This document shows positions 24,591 to 41,188 of a stretch of 41,520 nt of DNA, piece after piece. Position numbers and translations under genes: made by a program. The stretch covers positions 1-41,520 of the forward strand of contig JANQLP010000087.1 of assembly GCA_028280515.1 (NCBI GenBank), given 5' to 3'. This DNA comes from Hyphomicrobiales bacterium (GTDB lineage: Bacteria; Pseudomonadota; Alphaproteobacteria; Rhizobiales; Methyloligellaceae). Numbering within the stretch: the first letter of the stretch is position 1; each line of letters opens with the position of its first letter. The notes beneath the pieces are model-generated. The model was not told the origin of the DNA and ran no database searches. It worked only from the letters and a program-made list of their open reading frames with translations.

Positions 24591-24623
24591 GGGACAACAG
24601 ACGCATTGAGCTGAATGACAAAA

Positions 24624-24654
24624 TTGCAGAACATATATTCTCTTTGTTCTGTAA
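24624..24654. promoter_or_regulatory. Candidate operator, TTGCAGAACA-N11-TGTTCTGTAA
   Basis: Two inverted 10-base half-sites (24624-24633 and 24645-24654) differ at one base and are separated by 11 AT-rich bases. The site lies between the divergent GMC and MerR-XRE-cupin genes, close to where both promoters should be. A third half-site, TGTTCTGTAA, occurs at 29124-29133 upstream of the orphan binding protein. This is a natural candidate for binding by the adjacent regulator. Confidence 0.5.
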
Positions 24655-24732
24655 GTATATCAAGTTGCTGGACCGTGCAACGACAAAGGCGTTAGGCATG
24701 TTGCCGATGTGTTGGGATAGGGGAGATCCCGT

Positions 24733-25578: not shown

Positions 25579-25689
25579 CGTCGAAGTCCCGTGCTGTTTG
25601 GCGAACGGTCTGCGCATCCGTCGCCCGCATCGTCGTAAGCTCCGAAGTCAATCATCGTCGGTGTGGTTACCTTGGCTTCATCGAGAAAC

Positions 25690-27525: not shown

Positions 27526-27663
27526 GGACACGACCTCCAAATCTAACGCTCAAGTCCGGCTGGGTTGTGCTGTCGGTAAAGCGTGCTTTGTATGTCTGCG
27601 CGTAAGTGATCTCGCGCAGCGCTATGCTTTTGCCAAGAACTCTGCGGTGGAACGTGGAGGTCA

Positions 27664-27698
27664 GGAAACGAGCAGGATCAGTCCGCTTGCTCGTTTCC
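27664..27698 (-). terminator. Stem-loop after the orphan binding-protein gene
   Basis: GGAAACGAGCA (27664-27674) and TGCTCGTTTCC (27688-27698) are perfect 11-bp inverted repeats around a 13-base loop. The structure lies 22 bases past the stop of the binding-protein gene and before the hydrolase gene on the same strand. There is no long T-run on either side, so it may stabilise or partly terminate the transcript. Confidence 0.6.
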
Positions 27699-27719
27699 CA
27701 ACAAGCTCCACCAGTTAGA

Positions 27720-28871
27720 TCAGAAACCGGCTTTGATTTCTTCGAACACCTCTATGTAGTGCTCGCGAGTCGAAGGGGGGATCTCCGACAAGTAACGCGT
27801 GCCTTCCATAAAGGCCACGGGGTCGGAGATACCAAGTTTGTCGAGAGTTTCTTGGGGCACCATGTCGAACGCTTTCATGTTGCAATGGCCGTAGCCGCGT
27901 TCGGTTAGGTTGAAGATACCGCTCTCCGGCGACGAGACGGCGTTCAGGTAGTCATAGACCTTATCGATGTCGCCTTCGCCGTTGGTGATGTGCACGTCGC
28001 CGCACACCCAAGTGTAGATGCCTTCCTTAGGGTTCATGTATTCGATGTTGACGCCCTGATCCTTCAGCTTCAGCACCGAACCGTTCCATGCGTAGGAGGC
28101 GACGAGCTCGCCGGTCGCCAAGCCTTGTTCGACGGACGTGACATCCGTCCAGTACCAGCGCAGAAGGTCACGTTGCTTCTTTATCAACGGTATGGCGCGT
28201 TCAAGCTCCTCTTCTGTCATATCGAAGGGGTTCTCCGCACCGATCACCGCCCCAGCCACGCCAAACACGGTGTCCACCGAATCAAAGGTGCCAAGCCTGT
28301 TGGCGTACTTCTCGTCAAAGAGGATCATCCAGGAGTGATTCTCGGCGCCAGCATACTCCGGTGCCAAGTCTGGTCGAAACAAGACCGAGCTGTTGCCCCA
28401 CGAGCGCGGTAGGAAAACCTGCTGGCCGTTGACCTGCGCACCTTCAATCGTCTTGAGACTTGGGAAGACATCGTCCCAATGCTCCAATCGGCTGGTATCA
28501 AGAGGTGCCAGGAACCCTGCGTCCCACCAGCGGCGCAGACTATAAGTGCATGGCGTCGCAATATCGGGTTGGAAACCAGCCCGCATTTTCTGAAAGCCTT
28601 CTTCTTCCTCACCCCAGAATGCGAAAGATGGCATCAGACCATGTTTTTCGACATACCCTGGAAATCGTTCGGGCAGGTCACTGCCCGCCCAGGTAAAGAC
28701 CATCAGATCGGGATCCGCATCGTACTCTTGAGCGAGAGACGGCCGGCGCACCATCGGCAGCATGACTGTCGCGAGGCCGACTGAGGCCAAGACCTGGTTC
28801 ACCTGGCGGCGCGAGATGTCGTTGTTGGCCAGCCGCGAACGGAATTCTTGAATGTCCATTACTCGTGTCAT
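27720..28871 (-). CDS. Periplasmic polyamine-type substrate-binding protein (PotD/PotF-like), orphan
   Basis: This 383-residue exported binding protein has a signal with a twin-arginine pair (NDISRRQVNQVLASVGLATV), suggesting Tat or lipid-independent export, with cleavage near PSLAQE. The mature protein follows the spermidine/putrescine-binding family: LMVFTWAGSDLPERFPGYVE, GFQKMRAGFQPDIATPCTYS, a domain with VFLPRSWGNSSVLFRPDLAP, ELVASYAWNGSVLKL and the tail EIPPSTREHYIEVFEEIKAG. ATG at 28871 has GGGAG 7 bases upstream; the frame to 28964 adds a non-signal leader. No permease or ATPase gene lies nearby, so it must use a transporter encoded elsewhere or act in sensing. Confidence 0.9.
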   Translation of the reverse strand: MTRVMDIQEFRSRLANNDISRRQVNQVLASVGLATVMLPMVRRPSLAQEYDADPDLMVFTWAGSDLPERFPGYVEKHGLMPSFAFWGEEEEGFQKMRAGFQPDIATPCTYSLRRWWDAGFLAPLDTSRLEHWDDVFPSLKTIEGAQVNGQQVFLPRSWGNSSVLFRPDLAPEYAGAENHSWMILFDEKYANRLGTFDSVDTVFGVAGAVIGAENPFDMTEEELERAIPLIKKQRDLLRWYWTDVTSVEQGLATGELVASYAWNGSVLKLKDQGVNIEYMNPKEGIYTWVCGDVHITNGEGDIDKVYDYLNAVSSPESGIFNLTERGYGHCNMKAFDMVPQETLDKLGISDPVAFMEGTRYLSEIPPSTREHYIEVFEEIKAGF

Positions 28872-29636
28872 CTTGTGTCTCCCTAGACGTGTCGGCGGAG
28901 CGGTGCTCCCACGGCCCGGTGGTTGCTGTTCGGCAATGCGCTCAGCAACTGCGACTTTCCGCATCAGTCGATGGTAAGGCGTGGTCTGTAAGAATTTAGC
29001 TTTGGATATGCGAAAGCCTTATCCGTATGACCCAATTTCACCATCATTTGTGCGACTTTGCCGTGTCGAACCTTTCGCATTGTTAGCGAATCATGCATCA
29101 CTGTCTACAAGATAATCTATATATGTTCTGTAATAATGAGATTGGCAATCGATGCAAGTTCGCGCCACACGACGAACCTCTTGTGCGTGCTTCGAGCCTT
29201 GTGGGCGGGCTCGCTGGCACCTCTAAACAACGGTCTTGGCGGCTTTTTTCCGTGGCCCAGACTGCACGTCAACTTGCCCATGGCGACGGCGTGGTTCGCT
29301 CGTCTGGTCAGGATCCCACTGTACGCCCCGCGGATGACTCAAACTACATGCTGTCAGGACAGATGGAGTAAGACGCTAAGAGCCTGCGGCACGTGCGCGC
29401 GCGCCCATGCTGCATCCTAGACGGCTGTGACGTTGTTTCCATAACGCAGATTATGGCGCCCGACGACGTAAGCGCGATGCAATGTCTGCCCTTAGCGACG
29501 TTGAGTGTTGATTGACGTGGCTACTGACCGTCATCATGTGCTCAGCGCGACAGCGATCAAACTGGCTCGTTGATCTTGGCACGGCTGGACACCTCTCTCT
29601 TTGACCCAACTAGGGTGACATCGCCTGCAACCGCCG
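28872..29636. other. Long intergenic region with the binding-protein promoter area
   Basis: No gene is supported. The part from 28980 to 29150 is AT-rich and should hold the minus-strand promoter of the binding protein. It contains the half-site at 29124-29133. Small plus-strand frames at 29058-29420 and 29093-29371 overlap each other in different frames and match nothing I recognise. Confidence 0.5.
29124..29133 (-). promoter_or_regulatory. TTACAGAACA half-site upstream of the orphan binding protein
   Basis: On the minus strand this reads TTACAGAACATATAT, matching the left arm of the 24624-24654 dyad (TTGCAGAACATATAT) at 14 of 15 positions. It lies about 250 bases upstream of the binding-protein start. 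A partner half-site at the same spacing is weak. It suggests shared control of both transcription units. Confidence 0.35.
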
Positions 29637-30362
29637 TTAAGCCTGCTTTAGCGCCTTGGCGAGCACAAGCGTATCGTCGGCAAGAATCTGCAAATGATCG
29701 CGCATGCGTTTGCAGACTTCCTCTTCGTCACGGCGCATCAACGCATCCATGATGCCGTCATGCTCGCCAATCGATTCGGCGATGCGCCCCGGGCGGAAAG
29801 TGATGAAACGGCGATAAGGAACCAGCCGGCGATTCAGTGCGGTGGCCTCATCGGCAAGTACCGAGTTGTGGCTTGCGATATGGACCGCGCGATGGAAGGC
29901 GTGGTTCAGCTTGAAGAAGGTCTCCGCATCACCTTCGACCGCGGCAGCCCGACAAGCCTGGTGCGCCGCGACGATTGACTCCCTGTCATTGTCGGTCATA
30001 CGCCGGGCGGCGAGTCGGGCGGCAAAAGCCTCGACTTCCGCCATGACCTCATAGAGTTCGATAATCTTTTCGACTGTCAGTGTCGACACAATGGCGCCCT
30101 GCCTCGGTCGAACCTCGATCAGGCCGGACGAAGCCAACTCCTTAAGGGCTTCTCGAACTGGTGTACGCGATACCTGAAAGCGCTTGGACAGACCGGCCTC
30201 GTCTAGACGGGTGCCGGGCTTGAGGCGCCCCTCAATAATATCTGTCTCGAGCTCCTTGCGTAATCGATGCGCAAGCGTGGCGGCGCGGGGACTGTCGATT
30301 CGGCCGCCTGTCGACGGCCCCTCGACACGCGCTGCATCGTCGACAGGGAAGTGATCGCTCAT
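29637..30362 (-). CDS. GntR-family regulator, FCD subfamily
   Basis: This 241-residue protein has an N-terminal GntR winged helix (LAHRLRKELETDIIEGRLKP, GTRLDEAGLSKRFQVSRTPV, REALKELASSGLIEVRPRQG) and an all-helical FCD effector domain with its metal-binding pattern (ELYEVMAEVEAFAARLAARR, FFKLNHAFHRAVHIASHN, ESIGEHDGIMDALMRRDEEE). FCD regulators usually bind a carboxylate, often with a metal ion. The ATG at 30362 fits the family; an open frame continues to 30515 through the intergenic promoter and is rejected. It is divergent from the 11-gene operon starting at 30485 and is its likely repressor. Confidence 0.9.
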   Translation of the reverse strand: MSDHFPVDDAARVEGPSTGGRIDSPRAATLAHRLRKELETDIIEGRLKPGTRLDEAGLSKRFQVSRTPVREALKELASSGLIEVRPRQGAIVSTLTVEKIIELYEVMAEVEAFAARLAARRMTDNDRESIVAAHQACRAAAVEGDAETFFKLNHAFHRAVHIASHNSVLADEATALNRRLVPYRRFITFRPGRIAESIGEHDGIMDALMRRDEEEVCKRMRDHLQILADDTLVLAKALKQA

Positions 30363-30446
30363 TGGCTCTTCACCGTTCGTTTCCCTTGCATATCGCCTGA
30401 CATCGGACACAGCAAGCTTGACGCGAGCATGCAATAGAGAAAATAT

Positions 30447-30475
30447 TGCACACAATTTGTTGCTTTGTGTATGCA
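30447..30475. promoter_or_regulatory. Candidate GntR operator between regulator and catabolic operon
   Basis: TGCACACAA (30447-30455) and TTTGTGTATGCA (30464-30475) form an imperfect inverted repeat around 8 bases. It ends about 10 bases before the first gene of the operon and about 85 bases upstream of the gntR-type gene. Position and symmetry fit an FCD-type regulator site; the centre is less conserved than the classical TGTATACA core. Confidence 0.4.
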
Positions 30476-30484
30476 CATAGAGGG

Positions 30485-31657
30485 ATGGTGATCGGCGTGC
30501 CCGAGCCGGAAGCATCTGAAATCGCCATGATTGAGCAGCGCAATCGTCACTTCGATGCGCTGTTCTCGGGGCAAGGGGTGAAGTGGCTTGGTCAAAACAC
30601 CAACCATACCGCGCCTCATCCAGCGGTCAGGTCAGCCATGATCGAGTGTATCGATTCCGGCGAGTTCCATGTTTACGCTCCACCCCTTGGTTTTGAGGCG
30701 TTACGTCAGGCGATCTTGCGGGATCTCAGCCTGGATAGCGCATTTTCTGTTTTGGTCACCGACGGTGCGATCGAGGGTCTTTATCACGCGTGCCGAACAT
30801 TCATCGGGCCGGGAGAAGAGTTCCTGGTCACCGATCCCGGTTGGCTGTGGCCGCGCCGATTTGCAGCAAGCAGCGGCGCCCGCGTTATCGAGCTTCCCAT
30901 CTACGACAAAGCGGCCGGCTATCGGCTTCGCCCCGAGCAACTGCGCCAGGCCATAACGCCTAAAACCCGGCTGATCTATTTGGTCGATCCCAGCAACCCC
31001 CTGGGCTCCGTGCAGACCCGCGCGGAGATTGTTGAGATCGCGGAATTGGCGCGAGAGGCTGGCATCACGTTGATCCATGACTGTACCTATCGACACTTCG
31101 CCGGGGAACACACGCTCGCTGCGACGTATTACCCGGAAGGCACGATTACCACGTACAGTTTCTCGAAATGGCTCGGCATTGCCGGGCTGAGGCTTGGCGC
31201 GCTGGTGGCGGCCCCTGATGTGATCGCACGTCTTGCCGTGGCGGCACCGAACAACCTGGGCGCCTCCGTGCTGGCCCAGCGCGCAGCCCTTGCGGGTTTG
31301 GAGCACAAGGCGGATTGGTTCCCCGCCGTGCAGGATGCTCAGCTTGCCAATCAAGCGTCTATCAAAGCTGCAGTTGATGCTGTCCCGGGTCTCGACATTG
31401 CTGTCTACCCATCGAACGGGAATTTTCTTGCCATTGATGTTAGCGGCGCATCGGTCACGCCGGAGCGTCTTTGCGAGTACTACCTCGAGCGAAACATGCT
31501 CATTCGCCAAGGCAGCTATCACACGGCTCAAGTCGGTGATCGGTTCATAAAGGTAAGCACGACCGTGCCCAGCGAGTGGATGGCGGAGTTTTGCGATCAG
31601 CTTGGTGAGGCCGTTCAAGTGTGTCGTCGCCAAAACGCCGCGGGCTCTTTGTTCTAG
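30485..31657 (+). CDS. Class I/II PLP-dependent aminotransferase
   Basis: This 390-residue cytoplasmic fold-type I enzyme has VTDGAIEGLYHACRTFIGPG (cofactor phosphate region), DPGWLWPRRFAASSGARVIE, LVDPSNPLGSVQTRAEIVEI, the cofactor-contacting Asp in LIHDCTYRHFAGEHTLA, and the Schiff-base Lys in SFSKWLGIAGLRLGALVAAP. A C-terminal small domain ends near VSTTVPSEWMAEFCDQL. The start is uncertain: ATG 30485 is close behind AGAGGG, and ATG 30527 is a fallback. It is the first gene of the operon. It may remove the amino group of the imported compound or of a keto acid formed by the FAD dehydrogenase. Confidence 0.88.
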   Translation: MVIGVPEPEASEIAMIEQRNRHFDALFSGQGVKWLGQNTNHTAPHPAVRSAMIECIDSGEFHVYAPPLGFEALRQAILRDLSLDSAFSVLVTDGAIEGLYHACRTFIGPGEEFLVTDPGWLWPRRFAASSGARVIELPIYDKAAGYRLRPEQLRQAITPKTRLIYLVDPSNPLGSVQTRAEIVEIAELAREAGITLIHDCTYRHFAGEHTLAATYYPEGTITTYSFSKWLGIAGLRLGALVAAPDVIARLAVAAPNNLGASVLAQRAALAGLEHKADWFPAVQDAQLANQASIKAAVDAVPGLDIAVYPSNGNFLAIDVSGASVTPERLCEYYLERNMLIRQGSYHTAQVGDRFIKVSTTVPSEWMAEFCDQLGEAVQVCRRQNAAGSLF

Positions 31658-31698
31658 CGAGGGACCTGCATGTCGGTGAAGGAGAAGAGGGGTCAGTT

Positions 31699-32481
31699 TT
31701 GGATCTTCGTCTGACGGGAAAACGGGCTCTGATAACCGGAGCGTCTCAAGGTATCGGTGAGGGGCTTGCGGAAGCTTTTGCCGAGGAGGGCGTCAATCTT
31801 CATCTGGTGGCGCGCAACGAGGACCGTCTGAAAGAGGTGCAGAATAGACTTGCTGATAGCTTTGACGTCGCCGTGGAGATTCACCCGTGCGATCTGACCG
31901 GCGCCAGTGTCATTGGCGATCTCGTATCCGCAGTCGGTGACGTCGATATCCTGGTCAACAACGCCGGCCGTATCCCGGGTGGCAACCTAGAATCCATCGA
32001 TGACGCGGCTTGGCGTGACGGCTGGGAACTCAAGGTCTTCGGTTACATCAACCTGACCCGTGCGGTTTATCCGTTGATGCGGTCACGCGGCAGCGGCGTG
32101 ATCATCAACAATATCGGCAATGCCGGTCAGATCTATGACGCAGCTTACGTCGCGGGCACGGCCGGCAACGCGAGCTTGATGGCACTCACCCGAGCGATGG
32201 GCGGTCGCAGTCTCGACGATGGAATCCGCGTCGTGGGGGTTAATCCCGGACCCGTCGATACCGAGCGCATCTACAATCTCCTCAGGCGCCGGGCCCTAGA
32301 CTTGTATGGAGACGAGGCGAGGTACACCGAACTCCTCAAACGCTATCCGCTTGGGCGACCAGCGACCGTACGCGAGGTCGTTGATCTGATGGTTTTTCTG
32401 GCATCCGATCGCTCCGGCTACACCTCCGGCACCATTGTGACGGTCGATGGCGGCATCACGTCACGCAACTCGATCATCTAG
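31699..32481 (+). CDS. SDR-family oxidoreductase with an atypical active site
   Basis: This 260-residue Rossmann protein has TGASQGIGEG (residues 13-22, NAD(P) binding), NNAG at 87-90, and VVGVNPGPVDTERI and SGYTSGTIVTVDGGI near the end. The usual Ser-Tyr-x-x-x-Lys set is altered. Tyr150 is present in DAAYVAGTAGNASLM, but the Lys position holds Thr154, and the Ser position 13 residues earlier is Asn137. I recall a branch of SDR proteins sharing the YxAGxxGNAxLMAxTRAxGG pattern, so this is probably family-specific rather than decay. TTG at 31699 follows AGGGG by 6 bases; longer frames to 31621 run into the aminotransferase gene. It may have non-classical chemistry. Confidence 0.85.
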   Translation: MDLRLTGKRALITGASQGIGEGLAEAFAEEGVNLHLVARNEDRLKEVQNRLADSFDVAVEIHPCDLTGASVIGDLVSAVGDVDILVNNAGRIPGGNLESIDDAAWRDGWELKVFGYINLTRAVYPLMRSRGSGVIINNIGNAGQIYDAAYVAGTAGNASLMALTRAMGGRSLDDGIRVVGVNPGPVDTERIYNLLRRRALDLYGDEARYTELLKRYPLGRPATVREVVDLMVFLASDRSGYTSGTIVTVDGGITSRNSII

Positions 32482-32491
32482 GATCTGCGCC

Positions 32492-33370
32492 ATGCCATTC
32501 GCGGAAACAGATGACGGCATCCGGCTTTACTACGAAGTCGAAGGCGAAGGCGTGCCGCTTGTCTTCGTGCATGAGTTCGCCGGGAATTTCTGGAGCTGGG
32601 AGCCGCAGATCTCTGCATTCACGCGTCGCTATCAATGCATCACGTTCGCGGCGCGAGGCTATCCACCCTCCGATGTTCCCGACGATCTAGGAGCCTATTC
32701 TCAAGCCCGCGCAGCAGACGATATTTATGCGGTCATGGCCGCAGCCGGGATCGATTCAGCCCATCTTGTGGGTCACTCCATGGGCGGATTCGCTGTGTTG
32801 CATGCGGCCATGCGGGCACCCGAACGCGTCCGCTCTTTGGTCGTGGCGGGAACCGGCTATGGCGCCGAGAAGGCGTACGAGGACTATTTCCGCGACATCT
32901 CGGAACAGGTCGCTTGCGGTTTCGAAAGCGGCATCGACAGATTTGCGCCTATCTATGCCGAGGGTGCGTCGCGTGTGCAGTTCCAGGCGAAGGATCCGCA
33001 CGGCTGGCGCCTTTTTGCCGAACGGCTTGCCAAACACTCGGAAATGGGTGCGGCCAACACCATGCGCGGTGTTCAGGCTCGACGGCCTTCGCTCTACGAC
33101 CTTGAAAACGAACTTCGTGGCATTGCCGCCCCAACCCTGATCATCAGCGGCGATGAGGACGATCATTGTCTGCAACCGGGTATCTTTCTGAAGCGTGTCA
33201 TTTCAGCTTCCGGGCTCGCGGTCTTACCGAAGTGCGGTCACACCATCAATCTCGAAGAGCCCGAGCTGTTTAACAGGTTGCTTGGGGACTTTCTGACGTC
33301 AGTCGACCTGGGTCGTTGGGGCAAGCGGGATCCGCGGGCCGACCCGAGCCAAATCATGAGAACGTCATGA
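32492..33370 (+). CDS. Alpha/beta hydrolase
   Basis: This 292-residue hydrolase has an oxyanion-side VPLVFVHEFAGNFWSWEPQI, nucleophile Ser in AHLVGHSMGGFAVLHAAMRA near residue 94, acid Asp in LIISGDEDDHCLQPG and His in VLPKCGHTINLEEPELFN. It resembles the enol-lactonase/haloperoxidase-like group, acting on esters, lactones or C-C bonds. AGGA lies 8 bases before the ATG. It starts 10 bases after the SDR stop, and its TGA overlaps the next ATG as ATGA, so it is translationally coupled to the M20 amidohydrolase. Confidence 0.9.
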   Translation: MPFAETDDGIRLYYEVEGEGVPLVFVHEFAGNFWSWEPQISAFTRRYQCITFAARGYPPSDVPDDLGAYSQARAADDIYAVMAAAGIDSAHLVGHSMGGFAVLHAAMRAPERVRSLVVAGTGYGAEKAYEDYFRDISEQVACGFESGIDRFAPIYAEGASRVQFQAKDPHGWRLFAERLAKHSEMGAANTMRGVQARRPSLYDLENELRGIAAPTLIISGDEDDHCLQPGIFLKRVISASGLAVLPKCGHTINLEEPELFNRLLGDFLTSVDLGRWGKRDPRADPSQIMRTS

Positions 33371-34632
33371 GCCAGACCGCTTCGAACACAGCGGTTTTGC
33401 CGTCACAACACGTCGATACAGGGCGATTGTGGGATCGCCACATGAAACTCGCCGAATTCGGCGCGACACCGGCCGGCGGCGTCAACCGACTGGCCTTGTC
33501 GGACGAGGAGATCGCCGCACGCAAAGTGCTTGTTGCCTGGGCCCAAGATGCGGGTCTGAAGCCGCGTCATGACCCCGTCGCGAATCTCTTCTTTCGTCTG
33601 GAAGGTAGCGATATCGGTGCGGCGCCGGTGCTTTCCGGTTCACACATCGACTCGCAGCCGACCGGCGGTAAGTTCGACGGCACCTTTGGTGTTCTTGCCG
33701 CGCTCGAGGCGGTCTCAGCTATCGCTGCCCACGGGAAACGGCCGCGCCGATCAATCGACGTCGTGGCCTGGATGAACGAAGAAGGCTCGCGGTTCTCTCC
33801 GGGTATGATGGGATCGGAAGCGTTCACGGGCCAGCGTCCTCTGGAAGATATCTTTGCGGTCGTCGATGCCGAAGGCGTTGCTGTCAAAGATGCTGTCGCG
33901 CGTGTTTTGGATGCGGATGCCGGGATTGCATCGGGGCCACTCGGGTTTCCAGTTCATGTGTTCGTTGAGGCCCATATCGAGCAAGGACCTGTCCTCGAAC
34001 GGGATGGCCTGGCCATCGGAGTCGTTACAGGTATTCAGGGCAGTCGGCGGTTCCGTGTCACCGTGACGGGCGAGGCCGCCCACGCTGGGACGACGCCTCG
34101 TGGCGAGCGCAGGGACGCTGTTCTTGCTGCTGCTCGCATGATCAATGCGTTGGCCGGTCTAACGGCCGAACCCGCCGATGTGATGTTCACCGTCGGGTTG
34201 CTGCGCGTCCGGCCCAATGCACCGTCCGTGGTGCCGGAGGAAGCGTACTTCTCCATCGACCTGCGTCATCCCGATAATGCGGTGCTGACCCGGCTCGGAG
34301 ACGCTATCGCCGCGTGTTGTGCGCAGGAGAAGGGGCCTTGCGGCCTGGATGTCCAAGAGATTGCCAGCGCGCCCTCACTCGACTTTCCCGAAGCGCTTCG
34401 CCGACGCATCAGCACTGTCGCGGAACGACTGGGTCTGGGTTGGCGAGAAATCTATTCCGCCGCCGGACACGACGCACGTCAGCTTCATTATCATTGCGAT
34501 AGCGGCATGATTTTCGTGCCCTGTCGCGACGGGATCAGCCACAACGAAGCCGAATGGGCCGAACCCGAGCACTTGGCCGACGGTGCACGGGTTTTGACCG
34601 ACGTTTTGTGGGATGCCGCCAATGATCCATGA
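33367..34632 (+). CDS. M20-family amidase, allantoate amidohydrolase/N-carbamoyl-amino-acid hydrolase type
   Basis: This 421-residue enzyme is a dinuclear metal hydrolase. Expected ligands are His in LSGSHIDSQPTGGKFDGTFG with the bridging Asp in the same stretch, Glu-Glu in AWMNEEGSRFSPGMMGS, His in VEAHIEQGPVLE, and the C-terminal His in DGISHNEAEWAEPEHLADGA. The dimerisation domain includes VTVTGEAAHAGTTPRGERRD. Relatives hydrolyse allantoate, N-carbamoyl-beta-alanine, hydantoin-derived N-carbamoyl amino acids or, as YlmB, formylaminopyrimidine. It lies directly before an SsuABC/ThiXYZ-type importer, and YlmB is likewise linked to ThiXYZ; the other operon genes do not fit thiamine salvage. 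It removes a carbamoyl, formyl or acyl group from nitrogen. Confidence 0.9.
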   Translation: MSQTASNTAVLPSQHVDTGRLWDRHMKLAEFGATPAGGVNRLALSDEEIAARKVLVAWAQDAGLKPRHDPVANLFFRLEGSDIGAAPVLSGSHIDSQPTGGKFDGTFGVLAALEAVSAIAAHGKRPRRSIDVVAWMNEEGSRFSPGMMGSEAFTGQRPLEDIFAVVDAEGVAVKDAVARVLDADAGIASGPLGFPVHVFVEAHIEQGPVLERDGLAIGVVTGIQGSRRFRVTVTGEAAHAGTTPRGERRDAVLAAARMINALAGLTAEPADVMFTVGLLRVRPNAPSVVPEEAYFSIDLRHPDNAVLTRLGDAIAACCAQEKGPCGLDVQEIASAPSLDFPEALRRRISTVAERLGLGWREIYSAAGHDARQLHYHCDSGMIFVPCRDGISHNEAEWAEPEHLADGARVLTDVLWDAANDP

Positions 34633-35452
34633 TGTTCGCGATACCCCACCGAACATCGGCGGAGCGTCCGATCCGCTCGTCAGCTTTGATCGTGTGTCCA
34701 TGATCTATGGCGCAGAAACCGAGCAGGCGGTCCATGCCCTAAAGGATGTCGATCTTCACGTTGACGAGGGAACGTTTGTTTCGCTGATAGGGCCATCAGG
34801 CTGTGGCAAGAGTACGTTGTTGCGAGTCCTTGCTGATCTCATCGTTCCGTCCAGTGGTCTGGTCCAGGTCGGCGGACACCCACCGGAGGCGGCACGTCAG
34901 TCACGTGAAATAGGATTCGTGTTTCAGGATCCGGCATTGCTGGAGTGGCGCAAGATCCTCCAGAACGTTGCTTTGCCACTTGAGCTTCAGGGGATTTCCC
35001 GCGCACAGCGGGAGAAAGAGGCACGTCGACTGATCTCCCTTGTCGGTCTGGACGGTTTTGAGAATGTTCGGCCATCACAGCTTTCTGGCGGCATGAGGCA
35101 GCGCGCCGCGATCGCGCGCGCACTCTCGACCTCGCCCCGTGTCATGCTCATGGATGAGCCTTTTGGTGCGCTCGACCAGATAACCCGTGACCGCATGAAC
35201 ATGGAGCTGGTCGGTATCTTTGAAACGACTGGCATCACGGTGTTGTTTGTTACGCATTCGATCCGTGAAGCGGTGCTGCTTTCTGACCGGGTTGTGGTCA
35301 TGAGTCCGAGACCGGGCCGGATCGTACGGATTTTCGACGTCGATTTGCCACGTCCGCGAACCTTGGCGTCGCGCGACAGTGACGCATTCGCCGAGCTGGT
35401 GAGCCTTGGCACGAAAGAGCTGGAAGAAGGTTATGGCGACCAGATCCGCTAA
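34622..35452 (+). CDS. ABC transporter ATP-binding protein, nitrate/sulfonate/taurine type
   Basis: This 276-residue ATPase has Walker A LIGPSGCGKSTLLRVLADL, Q-loop GFVFQDPALLEWRKILQNVA, signature PSQLSGGMRQRAAIARAL, Walker B VMLMDEPFGALDQITRDRMN and H-loop FVTHSIREAVLLSDRVVVM. The Q-loop/DPALLEW region and the short C-terminus are typical of the SsuB/TauB/ThiZ branch. ATG at 34622 follows GGGA by 8 bases; ATG 34613 is also possible. Both overlap the M20 stop. It powers the permease encoded next. Confidence 0.93.
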   Translation: MIHDVRDTPPNIGGASDPLVSFDRVSMIYGAETEQAVHALKDVDLHVDEGTFVSLIGPSGCGKSTLLRVLADLIVPSSGLVQVGGHPPEAARQSREIGFVFQDPALLEWRKILQNVALPLELQGISRAQREKEARRLISLVGLDGFENVRPSQLSGGMRQRAAIARALSTSPRVMLMDEPFGALDQITRDRMNMELVGIFETTGITVLFVTHSIREAVLLSDRVVVMSPRPGRIVRIFDVDLPRPRTLASRDSDAFAELVSLGTKELEEGYGDQIR

Positions 35453-36254
35453 CCCAGGTACGCCAGAGAGCGTGATGGCGAAGTGGCTCGGGGTCGCGGC
35501 GAGAAGCATATGGCCACCCTTGGTGACGGCTGTTGTGGTGGTGGCGACCTGGGAGGCGGTTTGCCGGCTGTTCGAAGTGCCTGCCTACATGATCCCGGCC
35601 CCATCGCGGATCTGGATGGCCTTCATCACCAATCCAGAATCACTTCTCTTTAATGCGGGCGTTACGCTGTTCGAGGCCGTAACCGGGTTTCTCATCGGTT
35701 CAATCTTGGGCGCTATGCTTGGCACGGCATTCGCCTATTCCCGCCTGCTTGCGCGCGGCATGATGCCGTACATCATCGCGGCCAACACAATTCCCGTCGT
35801 TGCCATCGCACCGATCATCATTCTGTGGTTCGGCCACGGCGTGCAATCGAAGATCGCGGTAACGGCGTTTCTGTCATTCTTTCCGCTTGCCCTTAACATG
35901 ATGAAGGGTTTGCAGTCCTACGATCGCGTCATCATGGATGTGTTCCATGTTTCAGCAGCCAACGAATGGCAACGCTTCTTCAAGATGCGTTTGCCGAACG
36001 CGCTTCCCTACGTTTTTGTCGGACTCAAACTAAACGTCACATTCTCGGTAATCGGAGCCATCGTTGCTGAGTTCGTCCAGGCCGACAAGGGCCTGGGCTT
36101 CGTCATCATGACCACCTATCGGACGCTGAACATGCCGCGCCTTTGGGCGGCCATGCTGCTTTCGGCGCTGATCGGAATCATGTTCTTCGCGCTGATTGCG
36201 CTTATCGAAAGGTGGGCGATCCCCTGGCACAGCTCCATGCGAAATGACGAATAA
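35433..36254 (+). CDS. ABC transporter permease, SsuC/TauC type
   Basis: This 273-residue membrane protein has about six hydrophobic helices. The family stretch PAYMIPAPSRIWMAFITN follows the first helix, then PYIIAANTIPVVAIAPIIIL. The coupling loop that docks on the ATPase reads VFHVSAANEWQRFFKMRLPN. AIVAEFVQADKGLGFVIM and a final helix end in IERWAIPWHS. The start at 35433 overlaps the ATPase gene by 20 bases, with GGAAG upstream; ATG 35475 is an alternative. It forms the channel for the substrate delivered by the binding protein at 36335. Confidence 0.93.
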   Translation: MATRSANPGTPESVMAKWLGVAARSIWPPLVTAVVVVATWEAVCRLFEVPAYMIPAPSRIWMAFITNPESLLFNAGVTLFEAVTGFLIGSILGAMLGTAFAYSRLLARGMMPYIIAANTIPVVAIAPIIILWFGHGVQSKIAVTAFLSFFPLALNMMKGLQSYDRVIMDVFHVSAANEWQRFFKMRLPNALPYVFVGLKLNVTFSVIGAIVAEFVQADKGLGFVIMTTYRTLNMPRLWAAMLLSALIGIMFFALIALIERWAIPWHSSMRNDE

Positions 36255-36334
36255 CAGGAGCAAGTTGTGAAGAGGCACAGAACAACAGGGGACGTCGAGG
36301 TAAGAGGAAAGGCATCAACAATAGGAGGTTTGCC

Positions 36335-37345
36335 ATGACCAGGTTGTTAAGCACCACGGTGTGTTTTGTCATAAGCATGATGATGTTTGGTCTTGTCAGC
36401 GGGGCGAAAGCCGAAGAGACCTTGCGTCTCGAATGGGTGATGCAAGGTCAGTTTGCCGGACCGATCGTGGCCCTCGACAAGGGCTACTACAGCGACGCCG
36501 GCGTCGATGTCGAGTTGTTGCCGGCTGGCCCTGATATCAAGCCGGCCGTGACCGTCGCCCAGGGCGCTGACACTTTTGGTCTGGGTCATCCCAACCAGAT
36601 TATCGCGGCACGCTCGAACGGTGTGCCGTTGGTCATGGTGATGCAATTCGGTCAAAAGAGCGCAACCACCTACATTGCGCGTGCTGACAGTGGCATCACC
36701 TCGGTCGAGGACATGCCGGGTCACAGCGTTGGTCTTTGGTTCGGCGGCGACGAGCACGAGTTTGTTGCCATGCTGAACGCCGCGGGTGTCGAACAAGAGG
36801 ATGTCACGATCATCTCGCAGGGCTACGACATCATTGCGTGGCTGAACGGCGAGTATGACGTCATGCAGGTCACACGATTTAATGAGTTACAGCTTGTTTA
36901 TGACAACGGCTATACGGCCGATGATCTCGTTTTCCTTAACCCGGAAGACTATGGCGTCGCGCTTGTTTCCGGTGGCCTCTTCACCACGGAAGAAGTGATT
37001 GCGGAACAGCCTGATATGGTTCAGGCCGTCGTCGAGGCAACAATGCGGGGCTGGAAGGATGCCCTTGCTGACCCTGAGGCTGCCGCGGAGATCGTCGTGC
37101 GCTACAACGACGAGCTCGATGTGGCCAGTCAGGTTGCTCAGATCAAGGCGATGGGTGACCTGATTTGTGCCGGTCCGACGTTGAATGGCGAGTTTGGCAA
37201 GTCGGTCCTTGCCGACTGGCAGACTTCCCAGGACGTTATGCTGGGTGCCGGTGTGATCGATAGCGAAGTCGTTCTTGAAGAAGGCTTCACCAACGACTTC
37301 TGGACAGCTGTCGCCGAAGAAAACAAGTCGGTGGTCTGTCCGTAA
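36335..37345 (+). CDS. Periplasmic NMT1/THI5-like substrate-binding protein
   Basis: This 336-residue protein has a signal peptide of about 26 residues (LLSTTVCFVISMMMFGLVSG, cleaved after AKA). The mature part begins EETLRLEWVMQGQFAGPIVA and continues KGYYSDAGVDVELLPAGPDI, FGLGHPNQIIAARSNGVPLV and GHSVGLWFGGDEHEFVAML, all typical of ThiY/SsuA-type binding proteins. A strong AGGAGG lies before the ATG. Relatives bind pyrimidines, sulfonates, riboflavin or aromatic acids. It belongs to the ATPase/permease pair just upstream and is followed by a strong hairpin and a paralogue without a signal peptide. Confidence 0.93.
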   Translation: MTRLLSTTVCFVISMMMFGLVSGAKAEETLRLEWVMQGQFAGPIVALDKGYYSDAGVDVELLPAGPDIKPAVTVAQGADTFGLGHPNQIIAARSNGVPLVMVMQFGQKSATTYIARADSGITSVEDMPGHSVGLWFGGDEHEFVAMLNAAGVEQEDVTIISQGYDIIAWLNGEYDVMQVTRFNELQLVYDNGYTADDLVFLNPEDYGVALVSGGLFTTEEVIAEQPDMVQAVVEATMRGWKDALADPEAAAEIVVRYNDELDVASQVAQIKAMGDLICAGPTLNGEFGKSVLADWQTSQDVMLGAGVIDSEVVLEEGFTNDFWTAVAEENKSVVCP

Positions 37346-37359
37346 CGTCTTGTGTGCAG

Positions 37360-37395
37360 GACAGCCGGCGCCCGTTCGCCAAGGCGCCGGCTGTC
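37360..37395 (+). terminator. 13-bp perfect stem-loop between the two binding-protein genes
   Basis: GACAGCCGGCGCC (37360-37372) pairs perfectly with GGCGCCGGCTGTC (37383-37395) across a 10-base loop. It lies 14 bases after the periplasmic binding-protein stop. No T-run follows, and the next gene starts 25 bases later. It probably protects the upstream message or partly terminates transcription, giving more binding protein than enzymes. Confidence 0.65.
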
Positions 37396-37420
37396 AGCTG
37401 ATACAATGAGGACCCTTCCG

Positions 37421-38371
37421 ATGCCGTCGTCGCAGGAAGAGCAAGTCATTCGTATACGCCTTCTATGGCTGCCGCAGGCGCAGTTCGCCGGCTATCTGCT
37501 GGCGCAAGCGCAGAGCCAAGCAGCCGACGAAAGTGTGCGTATTGTCTGTGAACCGGCTGATCTAAAGGTCAGTCCAACCGTGGCCGTGCTTGAAGGCGAG
37601 GCGGAGTTCGCTGTTGCCAGCCCGGCTCATATCGTGGAGTCCGGCGCACCGGACGATCTTGTCTGGCTGCTGACAATTCAGCAGGAAAGCCCGCTTCTGT
37701 ATCCGGTGTGGCGTGACAGCGGCATCGAAACGCCACTTGATCTCAAGGAACGATCTGTCGCTATTTGGCCAGGCAATGAAGATCTTGAATTCCAATGGAT
37801 GGTCAAACGGGCGGGCTTGGATCCCGCTACAGTGAGGCGAAAGCCGGTCGGTGACACCGTAACGCCGTTTCTGAACCACGACGTCGATTGTGCGCAGATG
37901 ACCTGCTACCACGAACTTCACGTAGCCGAAGCACAACTGTCTGACTTCGACGCGATCCGTGTGTTCTATGCTGCTGATTACGGCGCAAGCCTGATAAAAG
38001 ATGGCTTGATCGCTCGACGCGACTGGGTTGAACGTAATACGGACCAGGTGCAAACGGTCGTTGACGCGGTGCTATCGGGTTGGACCATCGCATTTGACGA
38101 TCGGGCGATTGCACTTGAGGCTTGTGTTGCGGCGCGGCCGGACATGGATAGGGAAGACCATCAACGCCAGCTCGCGGATATTCGTGCGCTCTCGTTGTGC
38201 GGGCCGACCCTGACACACGGCCTGGGCTATCCTGATAGGGAACATGCGCGGCGTGCGGTCGAGGCTGCCGAGAGCGTTGGTATTGGAAAGTCTGGCCTTG
38301 TATCCGAGAGCATGGTCATGTCGAAGTTTTGGGAGTCTGCGCCGGAGGTGTCTCGGCGCAGGGCATGGTGA
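37421..38371 (+). CDS. NMT1/THI5-like protein without signal peptide (cytoplasmic binding-protein paralogue)
   Basis: This 316-residue protein aligns along its length with the preceding binding protein: IRIRLLWLPQAQFAGYLLAQ against LRLEWVMQGQFAGPIVA, FAVASPAHIVESGAPDDLVW, RSVAIWPGNEDLEFQWMVKR, TCYHELHVAEAQL and VFYAADYGASLIKDGLIARR. No signal peptide or membrane segment precedes the domain. ATG at 37421 follows AGGA by 8 bases; ATG 37406 is possible and also gives no signal. Its stop overlaps the start of the FAD dehydrogenase gene (ATGGTGA). It may be a cytosolic sensor, a substrate carrier or an enzyme, as yeast THI5 is a member of this fold that acts in synthesis. Confidence 0.88.
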   Translation: MPSSQEEQVIRIRLLWLPQAQFAGYLLAQAQSQAADESVRIVCEPADLKVSPTVAVLEGEAEFAVASPAHIVESGAPDDLVWLLTIQQESPLLYPVWRDSGIETPLDLKERSVAIWPGNEDLEFQWMVKRAGLDPATVRRKPVGDTVTPFLNHDVDCAQMTCYHELHVAEAQLSDFDAIRVFYAADYGASLIKDGLIARRDWVERNTDQVQTVVDAVLSGWTIAFDDRAIALEACVAARPDMDREDHQRQLADIRALSLCGPTLTHGLGYPDREHARRAVEAAESVGIGKSGLVSESMVMSKFWESAPEVSRRRAW

Positions 38372-39525
38372 ACGATACCGCCGAGGTTGTTGTCGTTGGC
38401 GCCGGAATTGTCGGCGCCGCCATCGCCTATGAGTTGGCGAAGCGTGGCCATGATGTTCTGATCGTTGAGAAGGGTACGCTTGGTGGTGCGGTATCGGGCG
38501 CCAGCCTGGCCTGTATCAGCACGCATATGATGGATCTCGACGAGTTGCCGTTGCTGCGGTGGTCGTGTGAAGCCTGGAAACGGCTTCATGATGAGTTTGG
38601 CGGCTTTGAGTATCATGCGTGTGGTCAGCTCCGTTTTGTCTTGAGAGATGATGATATCGATGTCGCCAGGCGTTGGGTCGACGCTGAGAGGGGAGTCGGA
38701 CTGGCCCCCGAGTTGCTTGACCCAACACAGGTGCGTGAGGTCGAGCCGTTGCTCGAGGGCCCGGTCGTGGGAGCTTCCTGGTCTACAGCGGACGCTGTCG
38801 TGAACCCTTTTCTCGCGGTGCGGATGTTTCTGAAGGCGGCTCGATCGCAAGGCGCCCGTGTTCGAGCCCATTGTCCGGTGGAGGCGTTGGTCGAGAGCGA
38901 TGGCGCGATCCGTGGTGTTCGCACGACGGATCGAGAGGTCGTTGCGGCGCGTCAGGTTGTTTTGGCGGCCGGGCCCTGGACCGCACGGCTAGCGGCCACT
39001 GTTGATCTGGCGTTGCCGATCAAACCTCGCAAAGCGCAGTGCCTCGCGACGGTTCGTATGCCGCCGTCTATCAGGCGTGTGGTTGGCGCCTGCGAGAGTG
39101 GCGGTGGTGTGGAAGCCGGTTACACGCAGATTCAGCAGGCGCATAACGGCCAGATCCTGTTCAATACCGTCTTGGCCGGCGGGCAATCGGATGACGGTGC
39201 TCAAGACAACGTATCGCAGGTCGATGAACCGTTCGTCAGGGATTCGGTAGCGACCCTTCTCATGCTGTTTCCGCAGCTCTTGGACGTTGCGTTGTTACGC
39301 TCCTGGGTCCGTTTTGAAGCTGTGACGCCGGACGATCGCTTTTTGATCGGCTCGGGCGGACCTGATGGTCTATGGATCGCGGCCGGTGACTGCGGCACAG
39401 GATTTGTGCGTGCTCCGGCAATAGCCCGCTGTGTTGCCGACATGCTCACGGACGAGACGCCGATTTTCGATACCTCGATCTACGCGCCCGGCCGCTTCGA
39501 TGGTTCGAAGGCTGCCTGGGCATGA
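38365..39525 (+). CDS. FAD-dependent amine/amino-acid dehydrogenase, DAO-type (beta-like subunit)
   Basis: This 386-residue flavoprotein has an N-terminal dinucleotide fold (VVVVGAGIVGAAIAYELAKR, followed by DVLIVEKG), GTLGGAVSGASLACI, a substrate domain, and the C-terminal FAD segment TPDDRFLIGSGGPDGLWIAA with CGTGFVRAPAIARCVADML. It belongs to the glycine/D-amino-acid oxidase family, close in style to HcnC, OoxB and beta subunits of heteromeric proline or opine dehydrogenases. It should oxidise a C-N bond. Overlapping starts tie it to the gene before it and to the 2Fe-2S subunit after it. Confidence 0.91.
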   Translation: MVNDTAEVVVVGAGIVGAAIAYELAKRGHDVLIVEKGTLGGAVSGASLACISTHMMDLDELPLLRWSCEAWKRLHDEFGGFEYHACGQLRFVLRDDDIDVARRWVDAERGVGLAPELLDPTQVREVEPLLEGPVVGASWSTADAVVNPFLAVRMFLKAARSQGARVRAHCPVEALVESDGAIRGVRTTDREVVAARQVVLAAGPWTARLAATVDLALPIKPRKAQCLATVRMPPSIRRVVGACESGGGVEAGYTQIQQAHNGQILFNTVLAGGQSDDGAQDNVSQVDEPFVRDSVATLLMLFPQLLDVALLRSWVRFEAVTPDDRFLIGSGGPDGLWIAAGDCGTGFVRAPAIARCVADMLTDETPIFDTSIYAPGRFDGSKAAWA

Positions 39526-39767
39526 CGCGGATTGTGGTCAACGGTGTGACGTGCGACGTACCCGCTGGGTTCACCGTTGCTGCGGCGTTGCTGTCGGTCG
39601 GTCACGTCGCCCTTCGACGCAGTATTCGACGGCACGAACCGCGAGGCCCGTTCTGTGGCATGGGGGGCTGCTATGAATGCGTGGCCCGTGTCGACGGGCA
39701 GGCCGACGTGCGGACATGTGTTACCGAAGTGCACGAGGGCATGCTGGTGGAGGTCGATCCACCATGA
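39522..39767 (+). CDS. Small 2Fe-2S ferredoxin-like subunit (HcnA-like)
   Basis: This 81-residue protein has the cluster-binding pattern C-x4-C-x2-C-x12-C in FCGMGGCYECVARVDGQADV followed by RTC. The N-terminus VVNGVTCDVPAGFTVAAALL is the ferredoxin-like strand pair. Small proteins of this kind carry electrons in heterotrimeric FAD dehydrogenases such as hydrogen cyanide synthase and opine oxidases. Its ATG overlaps the preceding TGA as ATGA, and its own stop overlaps the next start in the same way, so the three subunits are made in step. Confidence 0.91.
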   Translation: MTRIVVNGVTCDVPAGFTVAAALLSVGHVALRRSIRRHEPRGPFCGMGGCYECVARVDGQADVRTCVTEVHEGMLVEVDPP

Positions 39768-41188
39768 CGCGACGCCTGAAAAGTGATCTCGTGGTGATCG
39801 GCGCCGGACCCGCCGGGCTTGAAGCGGCCGCCGTTGCGAGTGCGGCCGGCGTTTCCGTGACGGTACTCGACAATTTTGCCGCGCCAGGCGGGCAGTACCA
39901 CATGCAACCCGGAGGCTCCGACTCCAGATTCTGCAAGGCATCGCAGGTACGCCAAGGCGTGGCGGCCATACGCCGTGTGATTGATCACGGTGGAGCCATA
40001 CTGAGCGGCGCAGAGGTGTGGGGCGTCTTTCCCGGCTTTTCGGTTCATGCCCAGGACGGCGAAGGTGCGATCCGGCTGGATGCGCAAACCCTACTCATTG
40101 CCACGGGTGCCCATGATCGGACGTTAGCATTTCCTGGATGGACGCTGCCGGGTGTCATGACGCCCGGCGCGGCACAACGCCTTGCGAAGACCAGTGGCAT
40201 CCCGCCGGGCAAGCGGACCTTGCTTGCAGGCAGCGGCCCCTTCTTGCTGCCGGTCGCCAATGCCGTGCTCAAGGTGGGAGGACGATTGGCCGAAATCCTG
40301 GAAGCGCGCCACCTCGATGCCGGCCCATTGACACTCCTGTTGAAACACCCTGAGAAGTGGCCGGAGGCGGCGCGGTTGTTGTGGCCGCTCATTGTTCACC
40401 GTCCACGGTTCCGCTTCGGTGAGGTTGTGATCGAAGCGTTGGGTGATGAACGGGTCGAGGCGGCTCGTGTTGCGCCACTGGATGCCGGCGGGAAACCACT
40501 TCCAGAACAGGCGCGCTTGGTCGAGAACATCGACTCGTTACTGGTTGGTTATGGTTTTCGCCCACAGATTGAGATGACCTCGATACTGGGGTGTGAGCAT
40601 CGTTTTGACGCGTTATCCGGCGAATGGTGTTGTGTGGTCGGCGATGAAACTGGCGCAACGAGTGTGCCGGGTGTGTTCGCGGCGGGTGAGATTGTATCGG
40701 TCGGCGGCGCGGTGCCAGCGCGGCTCTCCGGCAAGATCGCTGGTCTTGGTATCGTCGAGCATCTAGGTGGGGATGCGACCGCCGAAGAGCGCCGGGCCTT
40801 GGTGCGTCAACTCGGTCGCGCCCGCCGTTTTGCCGATGCCCTCCACCGCGCTTTCGCGCCACCTCAGGGTCTGCCAGGGAATCTGCCTGACGAAACTCTG
40901 ATCTGCCGCTGCGAGGACGTTACCGTCGGTGAGCTTCGCCGCGAGATGGTCAATGGTGTCGATGATGTCTATGGCGCAAAGTTATGGACGCGGGCCGGCA
41001 TGGGCGTCTGCCAAGGCCGTATCTGCGGATGGGGTATCGCACGGTTTATCGCAGCCGAAACGGGAACGTCGGTCTCAGACCTTGGTTTCAACCAACCCCG
41101 TATCCCGCTTCGTCCCGTTCCTCTGCGGGTGGTTCAAGCGTCACTTGAGAACGGATACTCGGGACAAGCCGATGGCGTCGTTTCATAG
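39764..41188 (+). CDS. FAD/NAD(P)-binding oxidoreductase subunit with C-terminal BFD-type 2Fe-2S domain (alpha-like)
   Basis: This 474-residue subunit has an N-terminal dinucleotide fold (DLVVIGAGPAGLEAAAVASA), the second nucleotide motif ATGAHDRTLAFPGWTLPGVM, GKRTLLAGSGPFLLPVANAV, and GVFAAGEIVSVGGAVPARLS. The C-terminal region carries four Cys as CRCEDVTVGE and MGVCQGRICGWG, the bacterioferritin-associated-ferredoxin-like cluster domain. This layout is that of HcnB, OoxA/NoxA and alpha subunits of heteromeric proline dehydrogenase, passing electrons from the DAO-type subunit to the respiratory chain. It is the last gene of the operon. Confidence 0.91.
   Translation: MTRRLKSDLVVIGAGPAGLEAAAVASAAGVSVTVLDNFAAPGGQYHMQPGGSDSRFCKASQVRQGVAAIRRVIDHGGAILSGAEVWGVFPGFSVHAQDGEGAIRLDAQTLLIATGAHDRTLAFPGWTLPGVMTPGAAQRLAKTSGIPPGKRTLLAGSGPFLLPVANAVLKVGGRLAEILEARHLDAGPLTLLLKHPEKWPEAARLLWPLIVHRPRFRFGEVVIEALGDERVEAARVAPLDAGGKPLPEQARLVENIDSLLVGYGFRPQIEMTSILGCEHRFDALSGEWCCVVGDETGATSVPGVFAAGEIVSVGGAVPARLSGKIAGLGIVEHLGGDATAEERRALVRQLGRARRFADALHRAFAPPQGLPGNLPDETLICRCEDVTVGELRREMVNGVDDVYGAKLWTRAGMGVCQGRICGWGIARFIAAETGTSVSDLGFNQPRIPLRPVPLRVVQASLENGYSGQADGVVS

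Follow-up and report, generated by a model that had tools for sequence, protein, structure and literature searches.

A conserved four-gene core with an exchangeable front end in an eleven-gene catabolic operon of a Hyphomicrobiales bacterium, with a possible pyrimidine-type substrate

Which compound is consumed by the products of eleven tightly packed genes on a contig of a Hyphomicrobiales bacterium (GenBank assembly GCA_028280515.1, contig JANQLP010000087.1)? The window analyzed here is that whole contig (G000:C205), 41520 bases long, and the genes in question occupy positions 30485–41188 of its plus strand, where a list of open reading frames (ORFs) together with Pfam and NCBIfam scans gives eleven full-length ORFs (Table 1). 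They encode an aminotransferase, a protein with the fold of short-chain dehydrogenases/reductases (SDRs), an alpha/beta hydrolase, an M20 amidase, an ATP-binding cassette (ABC) importer with its substrate-binding protein (SBP1), a second such protein (SBP2), and a three-subunit flavin adenine dinucleotide (FAD)/2Fe-2S dehydrogenase.

The original prediction had described eleven co-directional genes with these domains opposite a divergent FCD-GntR gene, with overlaps at most borders, as an uptake-oxidation-hydrolysis operon of unassigned substrate. All of the genes are found as full-length ORFs, six of the ten borders overlap, and the gene set looks complete and is conserved. A search of the open-access literature, which leaves out most subscription papers, yielded neither an orthologous operon with a known substrate nor any description of the operon or its core. 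The operon is intact-looking, catabolic and conserved. The single eleven-gene pathway that had been proposed fares differently: the genes do lie together, but they divide into a conserved core of four genes and a front end that can be exchanged, and do not form one indivisible pathway.

A conserved core and its exchangeable front ends

A five-row profile of the aminotransferase was scanned against GTDB contigs and 209 relatives were confirmed, of which the best 80 were used, so that near relatives are over-represented. These 80 loci were joined by seven from a sample of the host's order (six of its 13 loci duplicated GTDB-scan loci and were dropped) and by four plasmid loci, giving 91 loci for comparison. 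Nine plasmid records carry the aminotransferase: four are among the 91, that of Rhizobium sp. CB3060 was examined besides, and the other four were left out. The gene caller, whose training loci were all of high GC content, failed on those of low GC; L045 and L060 were therefore read by ORF list, and L048, L073, L075 and L098 only through similarity to the query proteins.

The core consists of the aminotransferase, the SDR-fold protein, the alpha/beta hydrolase and the M20 amidase. All four genes lie on one strand within at most 7 kb at 76 of the 91 loci, and four further loci have all of them in rearranged form (L033, L043, L045 and L049). At least one core gene is missing, at the thresholds used, from the other 11 (L021, L037, L042, L048, L050, L056, L060, L064, L077, L081 and L097); five of these stop at or near a contig edge on the side where the gene is missing, and in L021 the M20 matches are split over two ORFs. 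According to record titles the core occurs in alpha-, beta- and gammaproteobacteria, and titles and sources name plant-associated, soil and probably marine hosts. The aminotransferase was found in 14 genomes of a sample of 297 from the order of the host, and in 4 of a sample of 329 drawn from the whole phylum. The order-wide sample was put together without regard to neighbourhood; the 13 relatives of the window among its 14 positive genomes all have the four core genes within ∼20 kb. A GntR relative (at least 60 bits) accompanies the core at 72 of the 91 loci and an ABC ATPase relative (at least 120 bits) at 61.

What stands beside the core varies. The window-type front end, composed of importer, SBP2, DAO-type subunit, 2Fe-2S subunit and FAD subunit, was found at eight of the 91 loci (L035, L036, L037, L038, L054, L071, L094 and L101), each with at least three core genes and seven with a tight core; L037 has no M20 gene in the stretch examined. 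An aldehyde dehydrogenase separates core and importer in five of the eight (L037, L038, L054, L071 and L094) and is absent from the window operon. Among the front ends are ThiY-like importers of two kinds. An importer with a class II aldolase occurs at 20 loci, together with TauD (10 loci) or an LLM monooxygenase of the NtaA/DmoA type (11 loci), never both at one locus; the LLM enzyme of L113 is of this type by TIGR03860. A conserved cupin protein of ∼310 residues, for which Pfam gives only Cupin_2 and AraC_binding and which reads as gentisate-dioxygenase-like by sequence, is encoded at 12 loci (L021, L029, L031, L034, L103, L105–L110 and L112), all with the class II aldolase. A RutF-like reductase (239.6 bits, cut-off 254.75) is found at five loci, and the Bradyrhizobium loci L111, L113 and L114 have this reductase and no cupin. 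Elsewhere Tct or Liv importers serve as front ends, an 8-oxoguanine-deaminase-like amidohydrolase appears at six loci (396–424 bits for those scanned, cut-off 532), a CodA-like protein at two, and a molybdenum hydroxylase, recognized by clustering, at seven.

The full gene set is rare, because SBP2 at E 1e-20 matched one of 30 genomes of the host's family, namely the host itself; at E 1e-60, where scoring was limited to five candidates per genome, only the window was matched among 385 genomes of the class. The dehydrogenase and SBP2 are the window's own variant; of greater interest is the core, whose active sites are altered.

Active sites, binding proteins and dehydrogenase

Three of the core enzymes carry uncommon residues in their active sites, and these are conserved. 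The aminotransferase scores 473 bits against NF004870 (cut-off 351), and its Lys222, the residue for pyridoxal 5′-phosphate (PLP), is invariant in 91 sequences, as are Asn165-Pro166, Asp193 and Tyr196. In class I aminotransferases, Arg386 binds the substrate carboxylate. Lys350 replaces this C-terminal Arg in all 91 sequences, and the window's second aminotransferase keeps Arg at the aligned position. The predicted structure (predicted local distance difference test [pLDDT] score 92.9) has ordinary class I aminotransferases as its best fold matches, and the fold thus gives no clue to the substrate.

The second core protein scores 391 bits against NF004779/PRK06125 (cut-off 261). The original prediction had called it an atypical SDR; fold and family stand, and the departure goes further, in that the SDR catalytic residues are wholly missing. 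Where catalytic SDRs have Ser, Tyr and Lys, all 86 sequences compared have Gly166, Gly179 and Asn183, the latter two located by alignment to five canonical SDRs, all of which keep Tyr-x-x-x-Lys, and by residue count to the conserved NPG motif. The TGxxxGIG Rossmann motif is kept in nearly all sequences, and Asp173 and Tyr176 are invariant. Given this loss, the name ‘dehydrogenase’ is a mere label, and the residue pattern indicates that the protein is probably not an ordinary dehydrogenase. Five PRK06125-type SDRs outside the module (L126–L130) likewise have no catalytic Ser, Tyr and Lys, and they adjoin CoA-ester, ring-hydroxylating or ABC-importer genes.

In the alpha/beta hydrolase, Ser111 and Asp236/Asp238 are present in 89 of 89 sequences and His265 in 88, with one gap; its score against RutD is 71.6 bits (cut-off 238.5). 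The amidase scores 393 bits against the hydantoinase/carbamoylase model TIGR01879 (cut-off 204), has 5thw, 5i4m, 4wjb, 5tp4 and 8c46 as its closest PDB entries, and retains the HxD, NEE, HIEQ and SH motifs. M20 enzymes of the hydantoinase/carbamoylase group bind the substrate carboxylate with an Asn and Arg pair; Arg317 is retained, and Ser304 stands in 82 of 82 sequences where five of five aligned PDB relatives have Asn.

Judged by the binding proteins, the importer appears to be nearest, in sequence and in predicted fold, to the ThiXYZ pyrimidine importers. The closest PDB sequences of SBP1 are 4nmy, a thiamin-bound protein, 3ix1, which is the formylaminopyrimidine-binding ThiY, and Thi5; the Bosea-type binding protein, the other main kind at core loci, is also closest to 3ix1 and 4nmy. 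The best NCBIfam models for the ATPase are of the SaoA, taurine and nitrate types, all under cut-off. SsuA is not among the PDB matches of SBP1 at E 0.01, and ThiY and Thi5 are; these matches disfavor sulfonate use, which the SsuABC look of the importer might suggest, though SsuA and taurine models match weakly (24.7 bits for the taurine model, cut-off 304).

SBP2 is the NMT1-domain paralogue that the original prediction had listed as a second binding protein. The protein is present; at its inferred starts, however, it has no signal peptide. No hydrophobic leader is seen in nine of nine sequences, which start within ∼20 residues of the first strand. It keeps many invariant residues, its model (pLDDT 92.4) matches the folds of ThiY 3ix1, 4nmy and Thi5 best, its gene overlaps the DAO gene in the window, and it is paired with a DAO subunit at all eight loci where it was found. 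SBP2 may have a cytoplasmic role in binding or presenting a ligand.

This likeness of both binding proteins to formylaminopyrimidine-binding and thiamin-bound proteins also raises a narrower alternative, namely that the substrate is a 5-(aminomethyl)pyrimidine, either formylaminopyrimidine (base-degraded thiamin) or a tRNA-derived aminomethyluracil with an N-substituent. The M20 enzyme would then deacylate like YlmB, the dehydrogenase, TauD or LLM enzyme would strip the N-substituent, and the aminotransferase would take the aminomethyl group. Removal of alkyl groups from nitrogen is within the range of NtaA-type LLM, TauD and DAO enzymes alike, in keeping with such a scheme, and Lys in place of Arg at the carboxylate site of all 91 aminotransferases would suit an amine substrate. 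YlmB belongs to another M20 branch, however; the surroundings of the core showed no evident thiamin gene, although none was searched for by name; and the uridine-phosphorylase-like and deoC genes described below do not suit thiamin. For base-degraded thiamin itself, ThiXYZ uptake and a YlmB step (‘deacetylates’) are described in PMC5627462. On balance we regard this alternative as unlikely, if the most serious of those considered here.

The dehydrogenase has two ADP-binding motifs, GAGIVG in the beta and GAGPAG in the alpha subunit. The RxW motif of the beta subunit, a putative flavin mononucleotide site, reads RSW at 312 and is invariant in nine of nine sequences. In the gamma subunit the 2Fe-2S motif C-X4-C-X2-C-X11-12-C is matched by CGMGGCYECVARVDGQADVRTC, and this motif follows the DAO subunit in eight of eight window-type relatives; the alpha subunit is over threshold in seven of the eight, the L038 copy being truncated where the stretch ends. 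The closest PDB chain of the DAO subunit is 1y56_B, named ‘sarcosine oxidase’, which we take to be a subunit of an archaeal L-proline dehydrogenase. In the alpha subunit, Pfam Fer2_BFD is matched and C-X-C-X32-C-X4-C is found; the spacing C-X-C-X15-20-C-X4-C, given for the opine/D-hydroxyproline/L-proline/HCN-synthase family in PMC4575208, is not.

Does the dehydrogenase then disclose the substrate? An opine or imino-acid route, in which an opine or a compound resembling proline would be oxidized by it and the products processed through the remaining genes, agrees with the 1y56_B match and with the subunit order and motifs of the opine and proline dehydrogenases in that same account. At 83 of the 91 core loci, however, there is no DAO subunit in the stretch examined, so that the dehydrogenase cannot define the substrate of the core, and the families that the operon matched include no pyrroline or arginine enzyme. 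An opine operon was rejected on the former count, and the broader route is improbable. The opine reading fits the dehydrogenase family and draws on nothing else in the operon.

Substrate clues from related loci

The clues to a substrate class come largely from relatives. On the Rhizobium sp. CB3060 plasmid, a BMP-type importer (binding protein, ATPase and two permeases), the aminotransferase, SDR, hydrolase and M20 genes, a nucleoside phosphorylase and deoC run in one direction, with a divergent phosphopentomutase followed by an NMT1 importer, and a thymidine phosphorylase ∼4 kb further on the other strand; the CB3171 plasmid is alike except for a transposase insertion. At the Microvirga alba locus L043, importer, aminotransferase and SDR genes are followed by a phosphorylase that shares 59% identity with that of Rhizobium, and by a DeoC relative (31%), with the hydrolase and M20 genes on the other strand. 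The phosphorylases score 238 and 219 bits against uridine phosphorylase (cut-off 280) versus 88 and 91 against the purine-phosphorylase model, and a search for relatives in 72,556 plasmid records at E 1e-40 gave nothing beyond the two Rhizobium plasmids and five udp genes of Pseudoalteromonas. On the Neorhizobium galegae plasmid (L021) the core is joined by the cupin and a nucleoside hydrolase, and G940, a genome of another sample, has the same order with a nucleoside hydrolase 90% identical. The best models for the L021 enzyme are RihC, UriH and RihA (165–147 bits, all far under cut-off).

A dihydropyrimidinase is encoded in the gammaproteobacterial loci L045 (747 bits, cut-off 647), L048 and L060, which appear closely related to one another, and ∼4 kb from the core in L108. 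It occurs in 13 of 14 aminotransferase-positive genomes versus 180 of 283 negative ones (p 0.02). PreA (NF006183) has no match in the host at E 1e-60 and is present in 2 of 14 positive versus 105 of 283 negative genomes (Fisher p 0.09); dihydropyrimidinase without PreA is found in 11 of 14 versus 78 of 283 (p 0.0002). In these counts the genomes are related to each other and at most five candidates were scored per genome, and dihydropyrimidinase as proof of the substrate was therefore set aside. The classical reductive pyrimidine pathway was rejected on the distribution of PreA. In the host, the dihydropyrimidinase belongs to a cluster outside the window (L115, G000:C27:5500-25400; positions 8960–17632) that comprises an NMT1-like importer, a TRZ/ATZ-type amidohydrolase, the dihydropyrimidinase, and ORFs resembling N-carbamoyl-D-amino-acid hydrolase and hydantoin racemase, all named by eye except the dihydropyrimidinase.

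Dihydropyrimidinase relatives also bear on a route for hydantoins or N-carbamoyl/N-acyl amino acids, with the M20 enzyme as carbamoylase or acylase and the product amino acid oxidized or transaminated. The M20 score above the hydantoinase/carbamoylase cut-off, the dihydropyrimidinase relatives near L045, L048, L060 and L108, a hydantoin-racemase-like ORF (by eye) in L108, and the host's separate cluster of NMT1 importer and dihydropyrimidinase would all suit it. Yet Ser304 departs from the Asn of the five PDB relatives in every sequence compared, 87 of the 91 loci have no dihydropyrimidinase, and the nucleoside-cleaving enzymes are left unexplained; we consider it a poor prospect, somewhat behind the 5-(aminomethyl)pyrimidine alternative. 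The original prediction of an N-acyl or carbamoyl compound stands in so far as a carbamoyl reading of the M20 enzyme is possible, whereas the context in relatives points to a pyrimidine-type base.

Each of these clues is weak alone, and the nucleoside, phosphorylase and dihydropyrimidinase clues lie outside the window; together they point to a pyrimidine-type base. We hold, at about even odds, that the operon catabolizes such a base or a pyrimidine with an N-linked substituent. Several observations weigh on the other side. None of these nucleoside-cleaving genes lies inside the window, and the operon matched no family of known ring-opening enzymes; a phosphorylase is found at two of the 91 loci and a nucleoside hydrolase at one, with CB3060 and G940 in addition. 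RihC, the best model for the L021 hydrolase, is not pyrimidine-specific, so that this enzyme points to a nucleoside more than to a pyrimidine. Dihydropyrimidinase is common anyway, as the aminotransferase-negative genomes attest, and that of the host sits in a separate hydantoin-type cluster. Most front ends are substrate-neutral (TauD, LLM, class II aldolase, and Tct or Liv importers). Finally, SBP1 weakly matches the SsuA-family NCBIfam model (51.9 bits, cut-off 163.5), and the NMT1 family is broad, with few members of known ligand. The idea that the substrate is mimosine, which two plasmid hosts from Leucaena and Calliandra might suggest, found no supporting paper in the open-access literature.

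If the substrate is a pyrimidine-type base, a route can be proposed. The ThiXYZ-like importer would take up the pyrimidine compound, and the dehydrogenase, aided by SBP2, would oxidize a C–N single bond, either of an N-substituent or a saturated bond of the ring, with the respiratory chain receiving the electrons. Carbamoyl or amide parts of the opened ring may then be cleaved by the M20 amidase and the alpha/beta hydrolase, and the aminotransferase may take off the amino group. The SDR-fold protein would contribute a step that uses its dinucleotide-binding fold and not normal SDR catalysis. In relatives, other front ends replace the dehydrogenase and would yield the same core substrate.

More tentative, and in our judgment clearly less probable than a pyrimidine-type substrate as such, is the idea that the operon represents another way, beyond Rut, Pyd and Urc, in which bacteria break the pyrimidine ring, built on an altered SDR/aminotransferase/M20 core and, in the window's variant, with a binding-protein fold moved to the cytoplasm as a ligand-presenting partner of the dehydrogenase. 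A pyrimidine route, if true, would be an added way to recycle nucleic-acid nitrogen. That the SDR-fold protein consistently lacks its catalytic residues and that SBP2 has no signal peptide pose concrete questions of enzymology, and the few candidate ligands make the substrate directly testable via SBP1 and SBP2.

Operon layout and comparison with known systems

At the preferred starts, the overlaps measure 4 nt (alpha/beta hydrolase and M20), 11 nt (M20 and ATPase), 20 nt (ATPase and permease), 7 nt (SBP2 and DAO), 4 nt (DAO and gamma) and 4 nt (gamma and alpha), and the remaining four gaps are 10–80 nt. The codon at 31696 of the SDR gene is GTT, and a start at GTG 31621 gives a seventh overlap. 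For the regulator, ATG at 30362 is preferred, the longest ORF starting at 30515. The G+C content of the operon is 59.6% and that of the window upstream of it 59.7%. The last gene stops 332 bases short of the contig end, and the operon may thus continue with a further gene.

Table 1. Features of the operon and its regulator (window coordinates)
Feature	Position	Strand	Basis and remarks
FCD-type GntR regulator	29637..30362	-	Pfam FCD 99.6 and GntR 66.8 bits; divergent from operon
Divergent intergenic region, presumed promoter/operator	30363..30484	.	122 bases between preferred starts; function presumed
Core gene 1, class I PLP aminotransferase, PRK06225/NF004870	30485..31657	+	Start 30485 or 30527; Aminotran_1_2, NF004870
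Core gene 2, SDR-fold protein, PRK06125/NF004779 subfamily	31621..32481	+	Start uncertain; without canonical Ser/Tyr/Lys
Core gene 3, alpha/beta hydrolase	32492..33370	+	Abhydrolase_1; conserved Ser, Asp, His
Core gene 4, M20 amidase, hydantoinase/carbamoylase family	33367..34632	+	TIGR01879
ABC importer ATPase	34622..35452	+	Start 34613 or 34622; Pfam ABC_tran
ABC importer permease	35433..36254	+	Pfam BPD_transp_1; NCBIfam models under cut-off
SBP1, substrate-binding protein, presumed periplasmic	36335..37345	+	NMT1 domain; signal-like N-terminal segment by eye
SBP2, NMT1-domain paralogue, presumed cytoplasmic	37406..38371	+	Without signal peptide at inferred starts
DAO-type FAD subunit (beta) of three-subunit dehydrogenase	38365..39525	+	Pfam DAO 217.8 bits; GxGxxG, RxW
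2Fe-2S small subunit (gamma)	39522..39767	+	Fer2_4; C-X4-C-X2-C-X12-C
FAD and BFD-type 2Fe-2S subunit (alpha), HcnB/SoxA-like	39764..41188	+	Pyr_redox_2, Fer2_BFD, SO_alpha_A3; C-X-C-X32-C-X4-C, GxGxxG

Elsewhere in the window, a 281-residue protein (24733–25578, plus strand) matches MerR_1, HTH_3 and Cupin_2, that is, two different helix-turn-helix domains and a cupin. Upstream of the operon, 21169–28964 also holds genes for a gamma-glutamyltranspeptidase, a GMC oxidoreductase, an S15 peptidase and an SBP_bac_8 binding protein, and a run on the minus strand (9123–14230) with Meth_synt_2, PEP_mutase, class I aminotransferase and LysR genes looks like another unit.

How does the operon compare with described systems? 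With the opine dehydrogenase (OpnDH), D-hydroxyproline dehydrogenase (D-HypDH), HCN synthase and L-proline dehydrogenase (L-ProDH) family (PMC4575208), it shares the beta-gamma-alpha order, the two FAD motifs, the 2Fe-2S sites in gamma and alpha, and RxW. It differs in the X32 spacing of the alpha cluster instead of X15-20, in coupling an NMT1 protein without signal peptide to the dehydrogenase, and in having no opine or proline genes among the operon neighbors of the dehydrogenase.

Yeast Thi5, a cytoplasmic NMT1/THI5 protein, has the same fold as SBP2 and likewise no signal peptide, but SBP2 lies in a catabolic operon and is without the cysteine-rich motif of Thi5; a Thi5-like enzyme was set aside for this reason. 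The ThiXYZ and YlmB system for salvage of base-degraded thiamin has in common with the operon an NMT1/ThiY-like binding protein, an ATPase, a permease and an M20-type hydrolase, the differences being the hydantoinase/carbamoylase family of the M20 enzyme, the catabolic enzymes that follow, and the absence, so far as was noticed, of thiamin genes.

The Rut pathway differs from the operon in that no RutA, RutB or RutC is among the eleven genes (no search for RutA was made elsewhere in the genome of the host) and in that the LLM enzyme scanned is of the NtaA/DmoA type; shared with it are the distantly RutD-like alpha/beta hydrolase and, in some relatives, the RutF-like reductase and an LLM enzyme. 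From the reductive Pyd pathway the operon is set apart by the scarcity of PreA, and to it the operon is linked by an M20 enzyme related to the N-carbamoyl-beta-alanine amidohydrolase 8c46 and by the dihydropyrimidinase of some relatives and of the host genome elsewhere.

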